A DNA stretch of 40,699 nt from Gemmatimonadaceae bacterium (lineage in GTDB: Bacteria; Gemmatimonadota; Gemmatimonadetes; Gemmatimonadales; Gemmatimonadaceae), in the NCBI GenBank assembly GCA_025358925.1, contig JANYHT010000011.1, positions 1-40,699 on the forward strand. The letters are read 5' to 3'. The translations under genes were made by a program, and so were the position numbers. Positions 10,021 to 40,655 of this stretch are shown one piece after another. How positions within the stretch are numbered: the first letter of the stretch is position 1; each line of letters starts with the position of its first letter. The notes below the pieces were generated by a model, which did no database searches, had not been told where the DNA came from, and was given only the letters and a program-made list of their open reading frames with translations.

Positions 10021-10710
10021 CTAGTCCAGCAACGCGGTCAGCACAGCGTCCGTGTCATCGAGTGTGGCAAACGCCGCATGCGGGGCATGTGCTAACAAAT
10101 CTTCGACACTGTAACGCCCCGTGGCCACACCAATCGCGCGCACACCCAAGGATCGACCACAGTGAATGTCAGCGGGCGTATCGCCAATAATCACGAGCTC
10201 ATGTCCGGTGAGTTCGAGTCCAAGAATCTCACGCGCGCGCCGTTGCGCAACGGCCGGCAGCTCCGGTCGCTCTTCGTGATCACTGCCAAACGCGCTTACG
10301 CGAAATCGCGCAAAGTCGACACCAACAGCGCGCAACTTCTGACGCGCACCCTCCTCAACGTTGCCCGTCAGCAGTCCAAGAGTCGCACCGCCGTGCGCTT
10401 CTAAGGCGTCAAGGAGCGGCACTACACCACCGCACAACCGCGCAGCAGTCGGATCACGAGATAAGGCATCAGATAATCGCTCGACATATGCGTCAAGGAG
10501 CTCGTGCATGCGCGCGTCGATCGTTGCGTCATCGACACCGGACGCGCGTAACTCCTCACGCGCAATTTGCCGATCCGTCTTGCCGTCGTAGCGATACGCG
10601 GGATCACCGGTGGTGCCAAACAACGCGTACAATGCTCCTTCCATCGCTCGGCGACCGGCACCATCAGTCCACAACATCGTCCCATCGATATCAAACAGTA
10701 CCAGCTTCAC
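10021..10710 (-). CDS. HAD-superfamily phosphatase (Gph-like)
   Basis: A 229-residue haloacid-dehalogenase-type hydrolase with all four motifs: VLFDIDGT at residues 4-11 (nucleophile and acid/base Asp), GLLTGN (Thr), the Lys region before VIIGDTPADI, and that final GDTPxD pair. An alpha-helical cap lies between motifs I and II. The fold resembles phosphoglycolate phosphatase or pyrophosphatase-type HADs; the substrate cannot be read from sequence. Start is the GTG that overlaps the EamA stop (GTGA), giving VKLVLFDIDGT at the N-terminus; the frame is open upstream but only antiparallel to EamA. Compare the degenerate HAD at 36970. Confidence 0.88.
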   Translation of the reverse strand: MKLVLFDIDGTMLWTDGAGRRAMEGALYALFGTTGDPAYRYDGKTDRQIAREELRASGVDDATIDARMHELLDAYVERLSDALSRDPTAARLCGGVVPLLDALEAHGGATLGLLTGNVEEGARQKLRAVGVDFARFRVSAFGSDHEERPELPAVAQRRAREILGLELTGHELVIIGDTPADIHCGRSLGVRAIGVATGRYSVEDLLAHAPHAAFATLDDTDAVLTALLD

Positions 10711-31800: not shown

Positions 31801-31869
31801 GGCGCTCCCACCTTAGAAACCGGGCAGTACCAACGCTTGGTCCCACGGAAACGTTCGGAGAGGGCGCGT

Positions 31870-32781
31870 ATGCAGGCAGCGACCGCCAGTAGATCCGCAG
31901 AGACCCGTTCTCAGCGAGGATTCTTCCGCTCCTCACCCTCCACTGCGTTCGACCAGTATCTGCACGATATCCAAAAACTGCCTCTGATCACCGACGTCAA
32001 TGAAGAGCGTCGACTGGCGAGGTTGGCACAAAAGGGCGACGAAGCAGCCGCCGAACGTCTCGTCACGGCGAACCTCCGCTTCGTTATCTCGTACGTGAAG
32101 AAGTATCAAGGACACGGACTCGACCTCAGCGAACTCGTCGCCATCGGTAACGAAGGCCTGCTCAAGGCCGTACGAAAATTCGATCCTGATCAAGGCGTCA
32201 AGTTCATTTCGTACGCGGTGTGGTGGGTTCGCCAAGCCGTGCTTAAGGCGCTGGCCGAACAGACCCGAAGCGTGCGCATCCCGCTGAACCAAAATTCACA
32301 GCTCATCCGATTGGCGCGAGCAGAGATGATTCTCTCGCAGGTGCTCAATCGAGAAGGCACCGACGACGAAGTCTCCAAGGTGCTGCAGGAGCCGGTCGAA
32401 CAAATTCGTTCGGCCAGACAAATTTCCTGCACCGAAGTCTCGCTGGACGCGCCGATTGATCGGCAAGATCGCGAAGCCTCTACGCTGGGCGAACGCTTCG
32501 CCGGCGAAACGCATACCGACATTGAAGAGTCCACCGACTTCAAGTTGATGCGCGAGTTCATCGACCGTGTGTTCCGTAAGTATCTCACACCGCGCGAACG
32601 TAAGATCTTGTACTTGTACTACGGACTCGATGAAGGGGCAGAAGCGATGACGTTGGAGCGCATCGGCGCGCTCATGGGCGTTACTCGCGAACGCATTCGT
32701 CAAATCCGCGAACGCGCGTTCGAGAAGCTCCGCGAGTCGCCCGATGGAAACGCGTTGGCAGGATTTTGGGGTACAGCGTGA
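31870..32781 (+). CDS. RpoD-family RNA polymerase sigma factor
   Basis: A 303-residue sigma70 without region 1.1. Region 1.2 is FDQYLHDIQKLPLI; regions 2.1-2.4 read ANLRFVISYVKKY, GLDLSELVAIGNEGLLKAV then KFISYAVWWVRQAVLKAL; region 3 follows; region 4.2 is the helix-turn-helix TLERIGALMGVTRERIRQIRERAFEKL. The intact 2.4 and 4.2 helices imply recognition of ordinary TTGACA/TATAAT-like promoters. The length fits either a compact primary sigma or a group 2 (RpoS-like) sigma; I cannot tell which. ATG 31870 has a good ribosome binding site. An ATG-less upstream extension to 31837 is unlikely. The gene is monocistronic, with its own promoter and terminator. Confidence 0.93.
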   Translation: MQAATASRSAETRSQRGFFRSSPSTAFDQYLHDIQKLPLITDVNEERRLARLAQKGDEAAAERLVTANLRFVISYVKKYQGHGLDLSELVAIGNEGLLKAVRKFDPDQGVKFISYAVWWVRQAVLKALAEQTRSVRIPLNQNSQLIRLARAEMILSQVLNREGTDDEVSKVLQEPVEQIRSARQISCTEVSLDAPIDRQDREASTLGERFAGETHTDIEESTDFKLMREFIDRVFRKYLTPRERKILYLYYGLDEGAEAMTLERIGALMGVTRERIRQIRERAFEKLRESPDGNALAGFWGTA

Positions 32782-32957: not shown

Positions 32958-33026
32958 ATCAGCCGTTATCCGTTTTTCATCAGTGCAGTTTATCCGTGTC
33001 CCTTGCAGTTCATCCGTTCATATCCT
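32958..33026. repeat. Degenerate ATCCGT repeats at helical spacing
   Basis: ATC-containing words occur at 32958 (ATCAGC), 32968 (ATCCGT), 32979 (ATCAGT), 32992 (ATCCGT), 33012 (ATCCGT) and 33022 (ATCCTC), mostly 10-13 or 20 bases apart. TGCAGTT-Y-ATCCGT occurs twice, 20 bases apart (32984-32997 and 33004-33017). It fills the end of the 269-bp gap before glcD. The AT-rich part at 32845-32945 contains a possible -10 (TATACA, 32918-32923) but no convincing -35. Confidence 0.55.
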
Positions 33027-33050
33027 CAACCCCGTCGATATCTTCCGGCC

Positions 33051-34475
33051 ATGTCCGTCGACGCAACGCTGGTCAACAACCTCGAAGCCATCGTCGGCAC
33101 GCGCTGGGTAAAACGCCGAGCATCAGAACTCGTCGCGTATGACGCTGACGGACTACCAGGCTATCACGCCACCCCCAGACTCGCCGTTTTCCCCGGCTCT
33201 CGGGAAGAAGTTGTGCACGTCGTTCGCGCACTCGCCGAAGCGAACGTGGCATTCGTTCCGCGCGGCGCAGGCACCGGACTCTCCGGCGGGGCACTTGCCG
33301 CCGACAGCGTGTTGATTGGTCTCAATCGGCTCACGCGCATACACGACATCGATCACATAAATCGTGTCGTGCACGTCGAGCCCGGCGTTGTGAACGCCAA
33401 ACTTTCGCGAGCCGTCGCACCGTTTGGCTTGCAGTATGCACCCGATCCATCCAGCCAAACCGTGTGCACCATTGGCGGCAATGTCGCGGAAAATGCCGGC
33501 GGTCCGCACTGCCTCAAATACGGCGTCACACTGAATCACGTCGTTGCGCTCAACATTGTTCTCCCCAACGGAGAAACGCGAACACTCGGCCATCCCAACG
33601 GCGAGACCGACGGCTACGACCTCCTCGGTGTCTTCATTGGATCGGAAGGCTGCTTCGGAATTGCCACGGATGTGTGGGTGCGACTCGTGCCACTTCCCGA
33701 TGCGGTACGCACCATCCTAGCCGACTTTCCAAGCATCGACGCCGCAGCACGCGCGGTCTCCCGCATTGTAGCGACTGGTATCGTTCCTGCCGCGCTTGAG
33801 ATGATGGACAACCCCACCATTCGCGCCGTCGAAGCCTCTATTTACGCAGCAGGATATCCGATCGACGCGGCGGCAGTGCTCCTCTGCGAAGTGGATGGAC
33901 TGGGGGCCGGACTCGCAGAAGACGTTGACACCATTGCAGTGTGCTGCAGCGAAAGTGGCGCGCGTGACGTACGCGTCGCATCGACAGAGGAAGAACGTAC
34001 ACGACTATGGCAAGGGCGCAAGAAAGCGTTCGGTGCGATGGGTCGCATTGCGCCATCGCTCGTCGTGCAAGACGCCGTCGTTCCGCGCACTCGCCTCCCG
34101 GATATTCTCGCTACCATTCACGATATTGGTGTACGGCATCGCGTGAAAGTGTGCAACGTGTTTCACGCTGGCGACGGGAATTTGCATCCCAATATCCCGT
34201 ACAACGCGGATGACCCCGACGAATCAGCGCGCGTGCATCACGCCATGATCGAAATCATGCAAGCGTGCATCGATATCGGCGGCACGATCACCGGCGAACA
34301 CGGTGTTGGACTCGACAAGTTGCCGTATATGTCGAAGCTCTTCGACGACGACTCACTCGCGATGATGTGTGCCGTACGTGACGCGTTCGATCCTGATCGT
34401 CGCGCCAACCCTGGCAAAGTGGTACCGGTACACGCTTGTCGCGAATGGCACAGTACACGAGCTGCCCGCACGTGA
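33051..34475 (+). CDS. glcD: Glycolate oxidase FAD subunit GlcD
   Basis: FAD-binding catalytic subunit of membrane-associated glycolate dehydrogenase, oxidising glycolate (or D-lactate) to glyoxylate. The 474 residues show the PCMH-type FAD domain: VPRGAGTGLSGGAL (about 73-86), PDPSSQTVCTIGGNVAENAGG, then KYGVTLNHVV and GSEGCFGIATDVWVRL. The C-terminal domain carries the substrate and FAD-contact histidines in NVFHAGDGNLHPNI and ITGEHGVGLDKLPYM, ending in FDPDRRANPGKVVP. ATG 33051 gives the normal length; an in-frame upstream start at 33003 lies inside the repeat region. It overlaps glcE by one base. Members also act on D-lactate, so the substrate is inferred from the DEF set. Confidence 0.93.
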   Translation: MSVDATLVNNLEAIVGTRWVKRRASELVAYDADGLPGYHATPRLAVFPGSREEVVHVVRALAEANVAFVPRGAGTGLSGGALAADSVLIGLNRLTRIHDIDHINRVVHVEPGVVNAKLSRAVAPFGLQYAPDPSSQTVCTIGGNVAENAGGPHCLKYGVTLNHVVALNIVLPNGETRTLGHPNGETDGYDLLGVFIGSEGCFGIATDVWVRLVPLPDAVRTILADFPSIDAAARAVSRIVATGIVPAALEMMDNPTIRAVEASIYAAGYPIDAAAVLLCEVDGLGAGLAEDVDTIAVCCSESGARDVRVASTEEERTRLWQGRKKAFGAMGRIAPSLVVQDAVVPRTRLPDILATIHDIGVRHRVKVCNVFHAGDGNLHPNIPYNADDPDESARVHHAMIEIMQACIDIGGTITGEHGVGLDKLPYMSKLFDDDSLAMMCAVRDAFDPDRRANPGKVVPVHACREWHSTRAART

Positions 34476-35641
34476 TGCGCGAAACACCGACCACCGATCG
34501 CGACGTCGCTGTACTGGTCGCGGATGCACACGCGACAGGCACGCCGCTGCGCATCGTGGGAAACGGAACATGGCGTAACGGTGGCCGACCGGTGTACGCG
34601 CAACGCGAACTTTCAATGCGCGCAGTCTCGGGCATCGTCGAATACGTGCCAAGTGATCTGGTCATGACCGTTCGCGCTGGGACAACACTGGAGGAAATCG
34701 CGCTAGCGACGGCACGTCACGGACAGTGGCTATCGCTCGATCCGATTGGGCGAGACACCGGCACCATCGGCGCAACCGTCGCCACCGCATCGTCCGGGGC
34801 CATGTCGCTTGGCGCCGGTACAGTGCGTGATCTCGTGCTCGGGCTCGGCCTCGTCAGCGGCACTGGCACGCCGCTCCGCGTCGGCGGTCGCGTAGTAAAA
34901 AATGTCGCCGGATTTGATCTCGTGCGACTCTCAACCGGTGCATTCGGTACACTCGGTGTCCTTACAGATATTAGTGTACGATTGCACGCGAAACCTGCCG
35001 TTGATGCAACGTTCGCGATTGGTATCGACGCCGATCGCGACCCCCTCGACCTCGTGCAATCGCTTGGCCTGCGCGCGCTGTCGTTCCACGCACTTGAGGT
35101 ACTCGACCCTGCCACAACGGTACGTATCAACGCGGGCGATGATGCACGTTGGCTCATCGTGGCACGCGCAGTCGGTAACGCGACACGCGTCGCCGCACAG
35201 CGCGCAATATTGACCACCCTGGGCCGCGTGGAGGAACGCTCAGCACAACTCTGGACCGCGCTGCGGGACGAACCTGCATCGAGCGTTTCGCTTCGCGTCA
35301 CCCATGCACCATCGCGATTGGTCGCGACGCTCGACCGAGTGATGTTCGCGTTACGCGCCGCGCAGATCACCAGCGCGCAGCTTCGTTTGAGCCCACATCG
35401 CGGTGCGATTCGGCTCGTGATCCCCGACGCGATGACAATGGCAATCGAACCGTTGCGCCATCTCGTGAGCGCGCTGCACAGTAGCGCCACGCATGGCAGC
35501 GTACTGGGTGAACAATTGCCTAACGAAATTTGGCCGCTACTCCCGTCGGCCACGACGGACAGTATCTCGCAGCGTATTCGCGATGCGTTTGACCCGCGAC
35601 GCATTCTCAACCGCGGCATCTTTGGCGAACACACCGCATGA
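34475..35641 (+). CDS. glcE: Glycolate oxidase FAD-binding subunit GlcE
   Basis: Second flavoprotein-like subunit of the glycolate dehydrogenase, 388 residues. It has the FAD-domain half seen in GlcE proteins: TPLRIVGNGTWRNGG, VEYVPSDLVMTVRAGTTLEEI, GRDTGTIGATVATASSGAMS, VRDLVLGLGLVSGTGTPLRVGG, then VKNVAGFDLVRL and GAFGTLGVLTDI. The C-terminal half is shorter and more diverged than GlcD and lacks the GEHG metal/flavin motif, as expected for GlcE. It ends FDPRRILNRGIF. ATG 34475 forms a TGATG junction with glcD; the ORF is open to 34436 but that overlaps glcD. Its stop overlaps glcF (ATGA). Confidence 0.92.
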   Translation: MRETPTTDRDVAVLVADAHATGTPLRIVGNGTWRNGGRPVYAQRELSMRAVSGIVEYVPSDLVMTVRAGTTLEEIALATARHGQWLSLDPIGRDTGTIGATVATASSGAMSLGAGTVRDLVLGLGLVSGTGTPLRVGGRVVKNVAGFDLVRLSTGAFGTLGVLTDISVRLHAKPAVDATFAIGIDADRDPLDLVQSLGLRALSFHALEVLDPATTVRINAGDDARWLIVARAVGNATRVAAQRAILTTLGRVEERSAQLWTALRDEPASSVSLRVTHAPSRLVATLDRVMFALRAAQITSAQLRLSPHRGAIRLVIPDAMTMAIEPLRHLVSALHSSATHGSVLGEQLPNEIWPLLPSATTDSISQRIRDAFDPRRILNRGIFGEHTA

Positions 35642-36963
35642 CTGCTTCAGTGAAATCATGCGCGTTGCCTGAAACGCCGCTCGCCAACGTCTCGGCCGGA
35701 CTCGACGCATGCGTACACTGCGGTTTTTGTTTGCAAGCGTGCCCTACGTATGTCAATCTCGAAGACGAAAACGATAGCCCGCGAGGACGACTCGTACTCA
35801 TGCGTCGATTGCTCGACGGTGATATCGCACTTGACGACCCCGATGTCGGCGCGCACCTCGATCGCTGCCTCGGCTGTCGCGCATGCGAGACGGCGTGTCC
35901 GTCAGGGGTGCCGTACGGCGAACTGCTGGAGGCGACGCGTGCCACAATGATGCCCGTGCGCGGGCTGCCACTGGTCGCACGAATAGTGCTCGGTGTATTT
36001 GCACGGGAGTCGTTCTTACGACCGGTACTCTTTGCAGCACGGGTGTTGCGTGCAACACAAATTCCACGCGCGCTCGCACGAATTCTTCCCTCACGGCTCG
36101 CATTCCCGTTCGCGATGCTCGCGTCATCTTCACCGCATCTGCGAAACGCGCTAGGGCTCAACGCGCTAGGGCGCAACGAGCGGCTGCGATCCAGACCGCG
36201 CGTGCTTGCCTCTGAACAGCGTAATTCAGTCGCACTGCTGTACGGTTGCGTGATGGACGGTTTATTTGGTCACGTGAACGCAGCTACCGCTCGCGTCTTG
36301 CTCATAAACGGGTACGATGTGACCGCAGCACCGCAGCAGAAGTGTTGCGGCGCACTCCATGCGCACGCCGGCGATCTTGACAGTGCGCGCGCGCTCGCAC
36401 GCGCCAACATCGGAGCCTTCGAGTTATCGAACGTTCAATACATTGCCATCAACTCAGCCGGCTGCGGTGCGATGATCAAGCAGTATGCGCATCTCTTACG
36501 CGACGACCCCGCATGGGCGTCACGCGCCGAACAGATTGCCGCGCGTGCACGTGATATTTCCGAACTGCTCGCTGCTGTTGGACCGACGCAAGGCGGTGCA
36601 TTGCCTCTCCGCGTGACGCACGATCCGCCGTGTCATCAGATGCATGCGCAGCGTGTCGTCAAGCAGCCGCTGGCTGTGCTCGCGGCAATTCCCGAGCTGA
36701 CGCTCATTCCGCTGGAGGATGCCGATCAGTGCTGCGGAAGCGCTGGCATTTACAATCTGATTGAACCCGACACATCAGACGCCGTACTCGCACCGAAGTT
36801 ACGGTGCATCGCGCAAACGCACGCCACGTATGTCGCGTCCGGTAACCCTGGATGCATGATGCAACTAGGGGCCGGCTTGTTGCGCAGTGGCTCAACCATT
36901 CGTGTTGTGCATCCTGTTGAGTTGCTCGACGCGTCGTACGCCATGCAGCATCGCAACACCTAG
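35638..36963 (+). CDS. glcF: Glycolate oxidase iron-sulfur subunit GlcF
   Basis: Electron-transfer subunit, 441 residues, carrying electrons from the flavin subunits to the membrane quinone pool. Two 4Fe-4S ferredoxin motifs are complete: CVHCGFCLQACP (Cys25, 28, 31, 35) and CLGCRACETACP (Cys77, 80, 83, 87). Two CCG (DUF224) cysteine-rich domains follow: QKCCGALHAHAG and DQCCGSAGIYNL, with paired downstream cysteines in NSAGCGAM and GNPGCMMQL. There are no transmembrane helices. ATGA overlap with glcE supports one translation unit. The degenerate HAD gene starts six bases after the stop. Confidence 0.95.
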   Translation: MTASVKSCALPETPLANVSAGLDACVHCGFCLQACPTYVNLEDENDSPRGRLVLMRRLLDGDIALDDPDVGAHLDRCLGCRACETACPSGVPYGELLEATRATMMPVRGLPLVARIVLGVFARESFLRPVLFAARVLRATQIPRALARILPSRLAFPFAMLASSSPHLRNALGLNALGRNERLRSRPRVLASEQRNSVALLYGCVMDGLFGHVNAATARVLLINGYDVTAAPQQKCCGALHAHAGDLDSARALARANIGAFELSNVQYIAINSAGCGAMIKQYAHLLRDDPAWASRAEQIAARARDISELLAAVGPTQGGALPLRVTHDPPCHQMHAQRVVKQPLAVLAAIPELTLIPLEDADQCCGSAGIYNLIEPDTSDAVLAPKLRCIAQTHATYVASGNPGCMMQLGAGLLRSGSTIRVVHPVELLDASYAMQHRNT

Positions 36964-36969
36964 CGTGCG

Positions 36970-37587
36970 GTGAGGGAAAAGCTGCGCGCGATTATCGTTG
37001 CGTTTGACGGACTCGTTGCCGACACGCTTGGCGCGCGCGCGCAAGCGATTGCGGACGCGCTGACATCAGAGGGCACACCGACCTCGGCCGACGCAATCGC
37101 GGGACATGTCCATGGTCAGTCACTTGAGGAGACCATCGAGCATGTTTTGCGGCATCACGCGGCGCAGCGCGGTGGGTCAATAGATCACACGTCGCGCGAT
37201 CTCGCAGTGCTGCGTGCGCGTCGAAGTTATTCCGCGATCATTGCGCTCGGGCTTCCGCTGCAGCCGACTGCAACCGCGTGGATTATGCAGCATGCATCCA
37301 ACGGTATGAAGGTTATTCTTCGCGCCGACAGCGCGCGCGCCGACGTTGAAAATATGCTCCGACTTTCAGGATTTTCGGACAGCATCGCATTTGCGCGATG
37401 CGCTGATGATCTTCCTCGGCTGCGCGGACTCTCCACGACGGAAAGCGCATGGAGCGCGATAATACAACGTCTCGGAGTGATGCCAATCACACCGAGCGCT
37501 TGTCGCGCGGTCGAGATATCTGAAACTGCGGCTAAGATTGCGCAAACACTGATTGCTGACGTTGTGCTCGCTTCAACCCTGTCTTAA
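36970..37587 (+). CDS. HAD-fold protein lacking catalytic residues (predicted pseudo-phosphatase)
   Basis: A 205-residue protein with the outline of a beta-phosphoglucomutase/phosphoglycolate-phosphatase HAD: N-terminal RAIIVAFDGLVADTLGARAQ, a helical cap (GQSLEETIEHVL), and a core helix-strand pattern after ILRADSARADVENMLRLSGF. Every catalytic position looks altered. Motif I, normally hhFDxDGxxxDT, has Ala11 for the nucleophilic Asp (Asp13 remains). Motif II lacks the Ser/Thr after the strand. No motif III Lys is evident before SAIIQRLGV. Motif IV ED/DD reads VEIS. The reading frame is clean. GTG 36970 is the start, six bases after glcF, implying co-expression with glycolate oxidase, whose substrate is made by a HAD phosphatase. 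Confidence 0.8.
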   Translation: MREKLRAIIVAFDGLVADTLGARAQAIADALTSEGTPTSADAIAGHVHGQSLEETIEHVLRHHAAQRGGSIDHTSRDLAVLRARRSYSAIIALGLPLQPTATAWIMQHASNGMKVILRADSARADVENMLRLSGFSDSIAFARCADDLPRLRGLSTTESAWSAIIQRLGVMPITPSACRAVEISETAAKIAQTLIADVVLASTLS

Positions 37588-37622: not shown

Positions 37623-38684
37623 ATGTTGGAGATGGAGCACGTAATTGCGACCCCACTGCATGTATCTGATCTTGCGGCATACCACGCGTTGCAGACGAAC
37701 GCGGTGTGGTTTGAGTCGGCTGGACATTGGAGCGGCTTCCGGGGCGAGAAGGCGGCTGAGGCACTAAACGGCCTCGTCACCAACGATGTGACGTTGCTCG
37801 GTCCGGGCGAAGGCCAATACGCCGCCGCGCTAAGTCCCAAAGGCAAGGTGCTCGCCGACATGCTTATCATTCGTGTCGACGAGAACACCTTTCAGATGAC
37901 GTTGTTACGCGCGGCGGCAGAAAGTTGGTTGGCACTCGCGCGCAAATACGTAAATCCGAGACTAGCAAAAATTACCGATGAATCAGAACGCTACGTGACC
38001 TGGATGCTCTACGGGGCGCGTGCAATTGAAGCCGTGGCCGCGTTGGGTGGTGCGCAAGCGAGCACGGAAGGCTTGGGCGACGTGATGGTTGCGGCGCTTT
38101 CTGGATGGCCCGTCTGGCATCATGCGCCATGGAATCTCGGCGAGGCATCGATTCGCCTCATTCGCGCACCAATCATGGGCGCCATCCCCGGATTTATTCT
38201 CATGGCCGAGGTTGCCGATGCGGAGATTGTTCGCGAGCATTTGCGCGTATCTAATGTCCTTCCGGCCAGTCGCACTGTGTGGAATGTGGCTCGCGTTGAG
38301 AGTGGCCGACCGGCGTGGGGTCTCGATATGGACGAGAACACGATTCCGCAGGAAGCGAATCTCGACGCGCTTGATGCGATCTCGTATACGAAGGGCTGCT
38401 ACATCGGCCAGGAAACCGTCGCGAGGCTTCATTTTCGTGGGCACGTCAACAAACAATTACGCGGGCTTCGCGCCACCGCACCACTGCGTTACGGCGCACT
38501 CATCACCGACAGCATCGGCAAACTGGTTGGTGATGTACGAAGCAGTGTCGTCTCGCCAAAGCTCGGTGCCATTGCCATCGCGATGATCCGCCGCGAAGTA
38601 GCGATTGGTGACACCGTCCTGATAGGCGAGGACGATCAGCAGATCTCGGCACGTGTGGTCGAGTTGCCGTTTAGCGACGAGTAG
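37623..38684 (+). CDS. ygfZ: YgfZ/GcvT-like folate-binding protein
   Basis: A 353-residue member of the aminomethyltransferase-fold family that binds tetrahydrofolate and helps assemble or repair iron-sulfur clusters, including those of radical-SAM enzymes. The YgfZ signature K-G-C-Y-x-G-Q-E is present (TKGCYIGQETVAR, Cys259), followed by RGHVNKQLRGL. The N-terminal part (LNGLVTNDVTLLGPGEGQYAAAL, then SPKGKVLADMLI) matches the GcvT fold. The start ATG 37623 has GAGGGGG four bases upstream; a second ATG nine bases later is possible. It is 35 bases downstream of the HAD-like gene and probably in the glcDEF transcript, where GlcF offers four cluster-binding motifs. Confidence 0.9.
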   Translation: MLEMEHVIATPLHVSDLAAYHALQTNAVWFESAGHWSGFRGEKAAEALNGLVTNDVTLLGPGEGQYAAALSPKGKVLADMLIIRVDENTFQMTLLRAAAESWLALARKYVNPRLAKITDESERYVTWMLYGARAIEAVAALGGAQASTEGLGDVMVAALSGWPVWHHAPWNLGEASIRLIRAPIMGAIPGFILMAEVADAEIVREHLRVSNVLPASRTVWNVARVESGRPAWGLDMDENTIPQEANLDALDAISYTKGCYIGQETVARLHFRGHVNKQLRGLRATAPLRYGALITDSIGKLVGDVRSSVVSPKLGAIAIAMIRREVAIGDTVLIGEDDQQISARVVELPFSDE

Positions 38685-39079: not shown

Positions 39080-39188
39080 CGATCACTACCTGAGTGGGCA
39101 CATCTGAGCGTCGTTGCGCGCTGTATCTTGGCAATTGTACGGCACGTGCGCCTGCATTCGTGCGAATCCATCACATCAGACCAGACTC

Positions 39189-40655
39189 GTGTCCCGTCTC
39201 CCCGATTCCCTCGGCGCGCTCCGCCGATCAACATTCGCGCTCAAGCGCCCAGCCGGCGTCAAAGACGAGCTGCGTCGCAATCTCATCACGCGACTTCGCG
39301 AAGGCGGCCCGCTATTTCGCGGCGTGCTCGGCTACGAAGAAACGGTCATGCCGCAGATCGTGAACGCCGTACTCGCGCGCCACAACTTCATTTTGCTCGG
39401 ACTCCGGGGACAGGCGAAGTCGCGAATTCTCCGCGCACTGGTGAGTCTCCTCGACGAGCAGATGCCCGTGATTGCCGGGAGCGAAGTCAACGACGATCCG
39501 TTCTCGCCAATCTCAAAATACGCCAAGCTGCGCATCGCCGAGTTGGGGGACGACACCCCTGTCGCCTGGGTGGGTCGCGATGCGCGCTACGTCGAAAAGT
39601 TGGCAACGCCCGACGTCACCGTCGCGGACATTATCGGTGACGTTGATCCGATTAAGGCCGCGCGCGGTGGACACATTTTGAGCGACGAACTGACCATCCA
39701 CTATGGCATGTTGCCGCGCGCCAATCGCGGCATCTTTGCGCTCAATGAATTGCCCGATCTCGCCGGCAAGGTGCAGGTCGGACTATTCAATATCATGCAA
39801 GAAGGCGACGTCCAGATCAAAGGCTATCCCATTCGCCTCGAACTCGACGTCATGCTCTGTTTCACGGCAAATCCAGAAGACTACACCGCGCGCGGCAAGA
39901 TTATCACGCCGCTCAAAGATCGCATCGGCAGCGAGATCATTACGCACTATCCCGAGAGCGTGGACCTCGGCATGCAGATCACGCGACAAGAAGCGTGGAC
40001 GAAACGCGATGATGGCATTCCCGTTCGCGTGCCCGATCTCATCGAAGAAGTGGTCGAGCGTGTTGCGTTCGAAGCGCGAGAAGATAAGCGCGTAGACAAG
40101 CGCTCAGGCGTCTCGCAACGCATGCCCATTTCGGCCATGGAAAATGTGGTCTCCAACGCTGAGCAGCGGGCTTTGCGTGCGCGTGATACAGAGGCCGTTC
40201 CTCGCGTGGCGGATGTGTATGCCGCGCTCCCCGCGATCACCGGAAAGATCGAACTCGAGTACGAAGGTGAGTTAGTTGGCGGCGCGGCAATCGCGAAAGA
40301 ACTTATTCGTCGTGCATGCGATGCGACGCTGCGCGATCGAGCGGGCGATCTCGACACCGACGACATTGTAATTTGGTTTGACGCGGGTGGAGCACTCCAA
40401 GTTGCGGACGATGTTTCATTGAAACTCGTGCGACAGGGCTTTGATAGCGTGCCCGGACTGGTGTCATCAGTGGTTGCGCTCGGACTCGCGAAAAAAGGCG
40501 ACGACCCGATGATTGTCGTAGCGTGCGAACTCGTGCTCGAAGCGTTGGTGGCTCGGCGAAAAATTTCGCGCAGCGACGAAGGGAAGTACGAGTTCGCACG
40601 CTACGACAATCATCGGGTCGTCGCCTTTTTTCGCGAGTCCGAGCGCAACCACTGA
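39189..40655 (+). CDS. ChlI/MoxR-like AAA ATPase (C-terminus replaced by foldback sequence)
   Basis: A cytoplasmic AAA+ ATPase of the magnesium-chelatase-I/MoxR type. Walker A is GLRGQAKS, followed by the long insert, a Walker B-like [11 protein letters not shown] (Asn-Glu instead of Asp-Glu), sensor 1 in [26 protein letters not shown] and a lid region. MoxR-type ATPases usually work with a VWA-domain protein, which would be expected downstream, beyond the window. Start GTG 39189 gives [13 protein letters not shown]; the frame is open to 39114. From about 40588 (EFARYDN to the stop) the residues are encoded by the reverse complement of the gene's own upstream sequence, so the true C-terminus is unknown; only 39189-40587 should be trusted. 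Confidence 0.85.

Follow-up and report, generated by a model that had tools for sequence, protein, structure and literature searches.

A probable HAD-fold pseudoenzyme encoded beside ygfZ in Gemmatimonadaceae, and a possible role alongside YgfZ

The window analysed here is the whole 40,699-nucleotide stretch of contig JANYHT010000011.1 (positions 1 to 40,699 of the forward strand; assembly GCA_025358925.1, Gemmatimonadaceae bacterium), in which glcD-, glcE- and glcF-like genes are followed by a gene for a HAD-type protein and by a ygfZ-like gene (Table 1). The HAD frame opens six bases past the glcF stop and is intact over its 205 codons, as a sequence-only reading of the window had described it. 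That reading had also placed a non-catalytic HAD relative among glycolate oxidase genes, and the arrangement was borne out, since the protein with Ala11 comes next after the glcD/E/F-like genes (33003-36963), of whose products none reaches the strict NCBIfam equivalog cut-offs. The product of the downstream gene belongs to the YgfZ family, scoring above the curated TIGR03317 cut-off and carrying the KGCYxGQE motif. At the margins of this gene group, a sigma-70-type factor is encoded upstream of glcD (31837-32781, forward strand), an arrangement with a similar counterpart in genome G057, and ygfZ is followed by a large open reading frame (39114-40655, forward strand) whose AAA/MoxR-like matches are weak.

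Table 1. Coordinates of the genes and motif codons at the HAD locus of the window
Feature	Position	Strand	Description
glcD-like gene	33003..34475	+	Start as called mechanically
glcE-like gene	34436..35641	+	Family profile matches
glcF-like gene	35638..36963	+	Fer4 motifs and CCG domain; usual upstream neighbour of the pseudo-HAD gene
pseudo-HAD gene	36970..37587	+	205 aa, GTG start, TAA stop; predicted C1-capped HAD fold lacking the catalytic nucleophile
Ala11-Phe12-Asp13 codons	37000..37008	+	AFD in place of DxD (motif I); of 27 genus sequences, 25 have Ala and all have Asp13
R118-A-D-S-A-R123 codons	37321..37338	+	Apparently derived signature at motif II; in the genus, conservation of R118, D120, S121 and R123 is 90% or higher
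R143-C-A-D-D-L-P-R150 codons	37396..37419	+	Conserved loop past strand 3; catalytic Lys of motif III missing
Glu182 codon	37513..37515	+	Conserved; the probable Glu of motif IV, whose Asp is gone (assignment from our reading of the alignment)
ygfZ-like gene (CAF17-like Fe-S assembly protein)	37623..38684	+	TIGR03317 89.3 and 92.3 bits (cut-off 49); 35 nt downstream of the pseudo-HAD gene

Taken singly, the window protein gave a weak match to the Pfam family HAD_2 (E=0.14) and none to the PDB in a sequence search; HAD_2 was matched by 15 of 22 homologues from the genus (best 4.6e-6), and a profile built from 22 orthologues does retrieve HADs. The AlphaFold2 model, for which the input was an alignment of 14 sequences (the window protein and 13 orthologues), is that of a HAD with a helical C1 cap (pLDDT 84.6, pTM 0.79), its elements following one another in HAD order: a strand at residues 7-11, the helical cap at about 20-92, and strands at 114-118, 140-143, 178-182 and 197-200. 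The best Foldseek matches of this model were beta-phosphoglucomutases (E 1.8e-8 at best), and the best solved structure in VIA-align reached Z 19.6 over 187 residues at 2.1 Å. Both sets of matches span the whole length of the protein, and the model has the Rossmann-like core with a cap inserted after strand 1 that defines the superfamily; structure prediction and structural search thus recover the HAD core that had been proposed.

The residues on which HAD phosphatases and phosphomutases depend are missing from this fold: there is no Asp nucleophile of a DxD motif, no Ser/Thr at motif II, no Lys at motif III and no acidic pair at motif IV. In the model Ala11 closes strand 1 at the nucleophile position, where none of 27 copies from the genus has Asp, so that the proposed replacement of the nucleophile by Ala holds. 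The further proposal that the other motifs are eroded is correct for motif II, where Ala119 stands in place of Thr/Ser, for the lost Lys of motif III and for the lost Asp of motif IV; it fails for the second Asp of motif I, and the motif IV Glu has perhaps been kept as well, Glu182, invariant in one of the alignments, being a residue that the aligner may have displaced, as the motif IV columns of the MAFFT alignment are unreliable in the genus. Asp13 and Gly14 are invariant among the 27 scored genus copies. Positions conserved at a level of at least 90% cluster at the loops past strands 1, 2, 3 and 4, which form the HAD cleft (14/33 against 3.7 expected; hypergeometric p 1.6e-7), in a count for which the loop limits were set by us from the DSSP string and in which some of the conserved cleft residues are general HAD heritage. 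R118, D120, S121, R143 and P149 seem to be derived in the genus and its nearest kin.

Homologues were found in 28 of the 30 genomes of the genus (the Gemmatimonas group), the two genomes without one, G002 and G016, being 84% and 70% complete, respectively. Ala occupies the nucleophile position in 25 of the 27 scored copies, Leu and Gly in one each; Ala11 is conserved in relatives, a point that the sequence-only reading had proposed to check. No internal stops were seen in the genus matches, and pairwise dN/dS of the HAD gene lay between 0.09 and 0.23 (8 pairs), which is purifying selection; this comparison, too, had been proposed as a check. Simple local decay was rejected on account of the homologues in 28/30 genus genomes and of the lack of the nucleophilic Asp in almost all relatives in the family as well. 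The protein shares with pseudophosphatases, and pseudoenzymes generally, a conserved fold, a catalytic residue lost in the orthologues and purifying selection, and on this combination of alignment and predicted structure its status as a pseudoenzyme is well supported.

A gene may also be lost slowly, and a dispensable remnant kept mainly by its place in the operon, through translational coupling between glcF and ygfZ, would account for the absence of the HAD from several genera and for the stepwise loss of motifs across the family. It would also suit the comparison with the closest relative, in which dN/dS was higher for the HAD (0.21) than for glcF (0.13) and ygfZ (0.12); in the second pair compared the order was reversed (HAD 0.09, glcF 0.13). 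We consider such a remnant very improbable, given the low dN/dS throughout, the frames free of stops, the strong conservation of cleft residues within the genus and the presence of a shared derived signature (RxDSxR, RCADDxPR) instead of random erosion.

The protein had been described as of the phosphoglycolate phosphatase type, with a special link to the substrate of that enzyme, and this part of the sequence-only reading found no support, because less-derived relatives favour another family and the gene follows ygfZ and not glcF. TIGR02009, the beta-phosphoglucomutase/YqaB family of HAD-IA proteins, gave 20.1 bits with the window protein and 108 and 66 bits with the less-derived relatives L029 and L028, in each case below the cut-off of 153.35, while the same two relatives scored 75 and 44 bits with PGP_bact. 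For the window protein, TIGR01449 (cut-off 180 bits) was absent among the matches at E 0.1, and the Gph model NF009697 gave 15.9 bits (cut-off 327). These family scores led us to discard an ordinary Gph next to glycolate oxidase as an explanation. Among named proteins, the nearest relatives by sequence comparison are HADs of the beta-phosphoglucomutase/YqaB type and not phosphoglycolate phosphatase. With the former the window protein shares the C1-capped fold, its best NCBIfam family and its best Foldseek matches, but it lacks their nucleophile, the Thr/Ser of motif II and the Lys of motif III and carries the RxDSxR and RCADDxPR signatures; with Gph (TIGR01449) it has in common the superfamily and the cap type, with structural matches at Z 18-19 (2hsz, 2nyv), but not the catalytic residues.

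Phosphoglycolate phosphatase activity had been tentatively assigned to a second HAD of the window (10021-10710, reverse strand). Its DxD motif is indeed intact, but it is a poor candidate as the supplier, scoring 26.6 bits with TIGR01449, lower than the three other Gph-like proteins of the genome, which score 112, 76 and 60 bits; none of the four reaches the cut-off. This second HAD is closest to the phosphonatase-like TIGR03351 (45.8 bits, below the cut-off).

The region upstream of ygfZ was surveyed in 80 genomes of the order and then in 20 more, all within one phylum (Gemmatimonadota). In the window's family, the 34 copies from outside the genus have Glu at the nucleophile position in 27 cases, Ala in four and Asp in three, and they keep the Thr/Ser of motif II in 30/34, the Lys in 21/34 and the motif IV Asp in 23/34. 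In two sister families all 17 scored copies combine an Asp nucleophile with an acid/base Asn (DxN) and retain the Ser, the Lys and the Glu-Asp pair; in a sample of 100 genomes from the phylum, this DxN form beside ygfZ was confined to the same order. Loss of the nucleophile is thus old and family-wide, since Glu and Ala dominate the other genera and the sister families carry DxN. The window's family (support 98/98) and the sister families (98/99) form separate, well-supported clades in the tree, as expected under vertical descent. With the motif I columns removed, the whole tree requires three changes between Asp and non-Asp. A single early loss of Asp, followed by two later returns in copies without the Lys, fits this number; that order of events is our own reading of the tree and is made without ancestral inference. 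As separate observations, loci L029, L109, L110 and L113, together with other f2/f3 loci, hold a HAD subfamily whose motif I is invariably DxN(G), with Asn as the acid/base residue, and whose other motifs are intact; the HAD copies of L100 and L102 (genomes G095 and G080) contain an Ala-Asn-Thr repeat in the cap region, longer in L100.

Conservation of this kind could also mean that the enzyme has changed its chemistry, another reaction being catalysed by a remodelled cleft centred on Asp13, R118, D120 and the RCADD loop or, in relatives, on ExE or ExD. The invariance of Asp13, the high conservation of charged residues in the cleft loops and the retention of Thr/Ser, Lys and motif IV Asp around a Glu in many copies from other genera are all in keeping with this. 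However, the nucleophile position varies among Glu, Ala, Asp, Leu and Gly in relatives, and motifs III and IV have been lost repeatedly, which suggests that catalysis is not the property under constraint; moreover, no HAD is known to us that carries out its chemistry with Ala at the nucleophile position. We therefore regard a new catalytic activity as improbable, if somewhat less so than a dying remnant.

The neighbour that the HAD gene keeps most faithfully is ygfZ, immediately upstream of which it was found in every homologue with enough assembled sequence. Of the 50 copies outside the genus, 43 show an overlap of 4 or 8 nt between the two genes (29/34 in the family and 14/16 in the sister families), as measured between the HAD stop and mechanically called ygfZ start codons. 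In the single-contig genome G028 (locus L019, reverse strand) HAD and YgfZ are fused in-frame in one frame of 550 aa, while they are separate in close relatives. Genes for the two proteins stay together in G005, G012, G015 and G028, in which glcF lies 2-13 kb away, and the pair is present in G057, G154 and G160 (DxN form) and in G169 (ExE form), where no glcF orthologue was found, G154 being 86% and G169 91% complete. It is thus ygfZ, not glcF, that the pseudo-HAD gene follows. In several genera glcF and ygfZ are present and the HAD is missing (G033, G035, G063, G065, G066, G078, G093 and G165, among others), and YgfZ therefore does not always depend on it. The pairs without a glcF orthologue lie at loci L178 (G057), L183 (G160), L197 (G154) and L081 (G169); at L178 the gene order is sigma factor, glcE-like gene, HAD, ygfZ.

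A tie to GlcF may nonetheless exist. The HAD is directly downstream of glcF in most genomes, every genus genome with an assembled HAD locus also has a glcF match, and in seven members of the genus (L005, L006, L007, L014, L018, L023 and L024) there is a 4-nt overlap between the glcF stop and the start of the HAD gene, whereas the overlap with ygfZ is gone in the genus, being replaced by a gap of 35 nt here and by larger ones elsewhere. Coupling in those members seems to have shifted to glcF from ygfZ. The tie could be explained by a pseudoenzyme dedicated to GlcDEF, which would regulate glycolate oxidase either by sensing 2-phosphoglycolate (or some other phosphometabolite) or by acting as a scaffold. 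We think this unlikely: the HAD remains with ygfZ where the three genes have separated, HAD-ygfZ pairs occur without glcF, and the less-derived relatives score higher with beta-phosphoglucomutase families than with phosphoglycolate phosphatase. The phosphate-binding Thr/Ser and Lys motifs are also gone, and binding of phosphoglycolate is therefore not specifically predicted. By way of YgfZ, a function particular to GlcF may still exist, given that GlcF belongs to the Fe-S proteins and that the start of the HAD gene runs into the glcF stop in several members of the genus.

YgfZ/IBA57/CAF17-like factors (COG0354, TIGR03317), to which the product of the neighbouring gene belongs and with which the HAD is not homologous, have genes that are often found in clusters with those of various Fe-S proteins; in E. 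coli, YgfZ is a folate-binding protein that supports Fe-S enzymes (PMC3223725). The explanation we favour, to which we give about an even chance, is that the non-catalytic HAD works with YgfZ, either as its partner or by regulating it, and that GlcF is a likely client, though not the sole one; the mechanism by way of YgfZ is drawn from gene order, overlap and one fusion. A beta-phosphoglucomutase-type (C1-cap) HAD would have lost its nucleophile in the ancestor of the family and been retained as a non-catalytic protein; it would work with YgfZ, the folate-binding factor for Fe-S cluster maturation or repair encoded alongside, and help it to load or repair [4Fe-4S] clusters, among others those of GlcF. 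The former phosphate-binding cleft, remodelled and strongly conserved in the genus, probably still binds a ligand or a partner. Physical interaction with YgfZ, an effect on Fe-S maturation and ligand binding would be corollaries of this reading. Against a role with YgfZ it may be said that the genus has lost the ygfZ overlap, that several of its members overlap glcF instead, and that operon neighbours can share transcription without interacting. More speculative, and less likely than not, is a dedicated subunit of bacterial YgfZ: a pseudoenzyme of the HAD type would bind YgfZ, possibly together with a phosphometabolite or folate, and would control the delivery of Fe-S clusters to clients, GlcF among them.

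Pseudoenzymes are a known kind of protein, but a family-wide pseudo-HAD linked to ygfZ, with a graded series of motifs, was not found in the literature searched. Likewise, this literature, outside which most subscription journals lay, held no description of a HAD partner of YgfZ and nothing relevant on 'pseudoenzyme' with 'HAD superfamily', an absence that is no proof of novelty. The DxN, ExD/ExE and AxD forms provide a graded natural series for tracing the passage from a phosphatase fold to a non-catalytic protein. Since the precise role of YgfZ in Fe-S metabolism has been described as uncharacterized (PMC10002905), a partner gene that is constant, often overlapping and once fused offers a direct handle on that role, and a dedicated YgfZ subunit, if it exists, would link central metabolism to Fe-S maturation.
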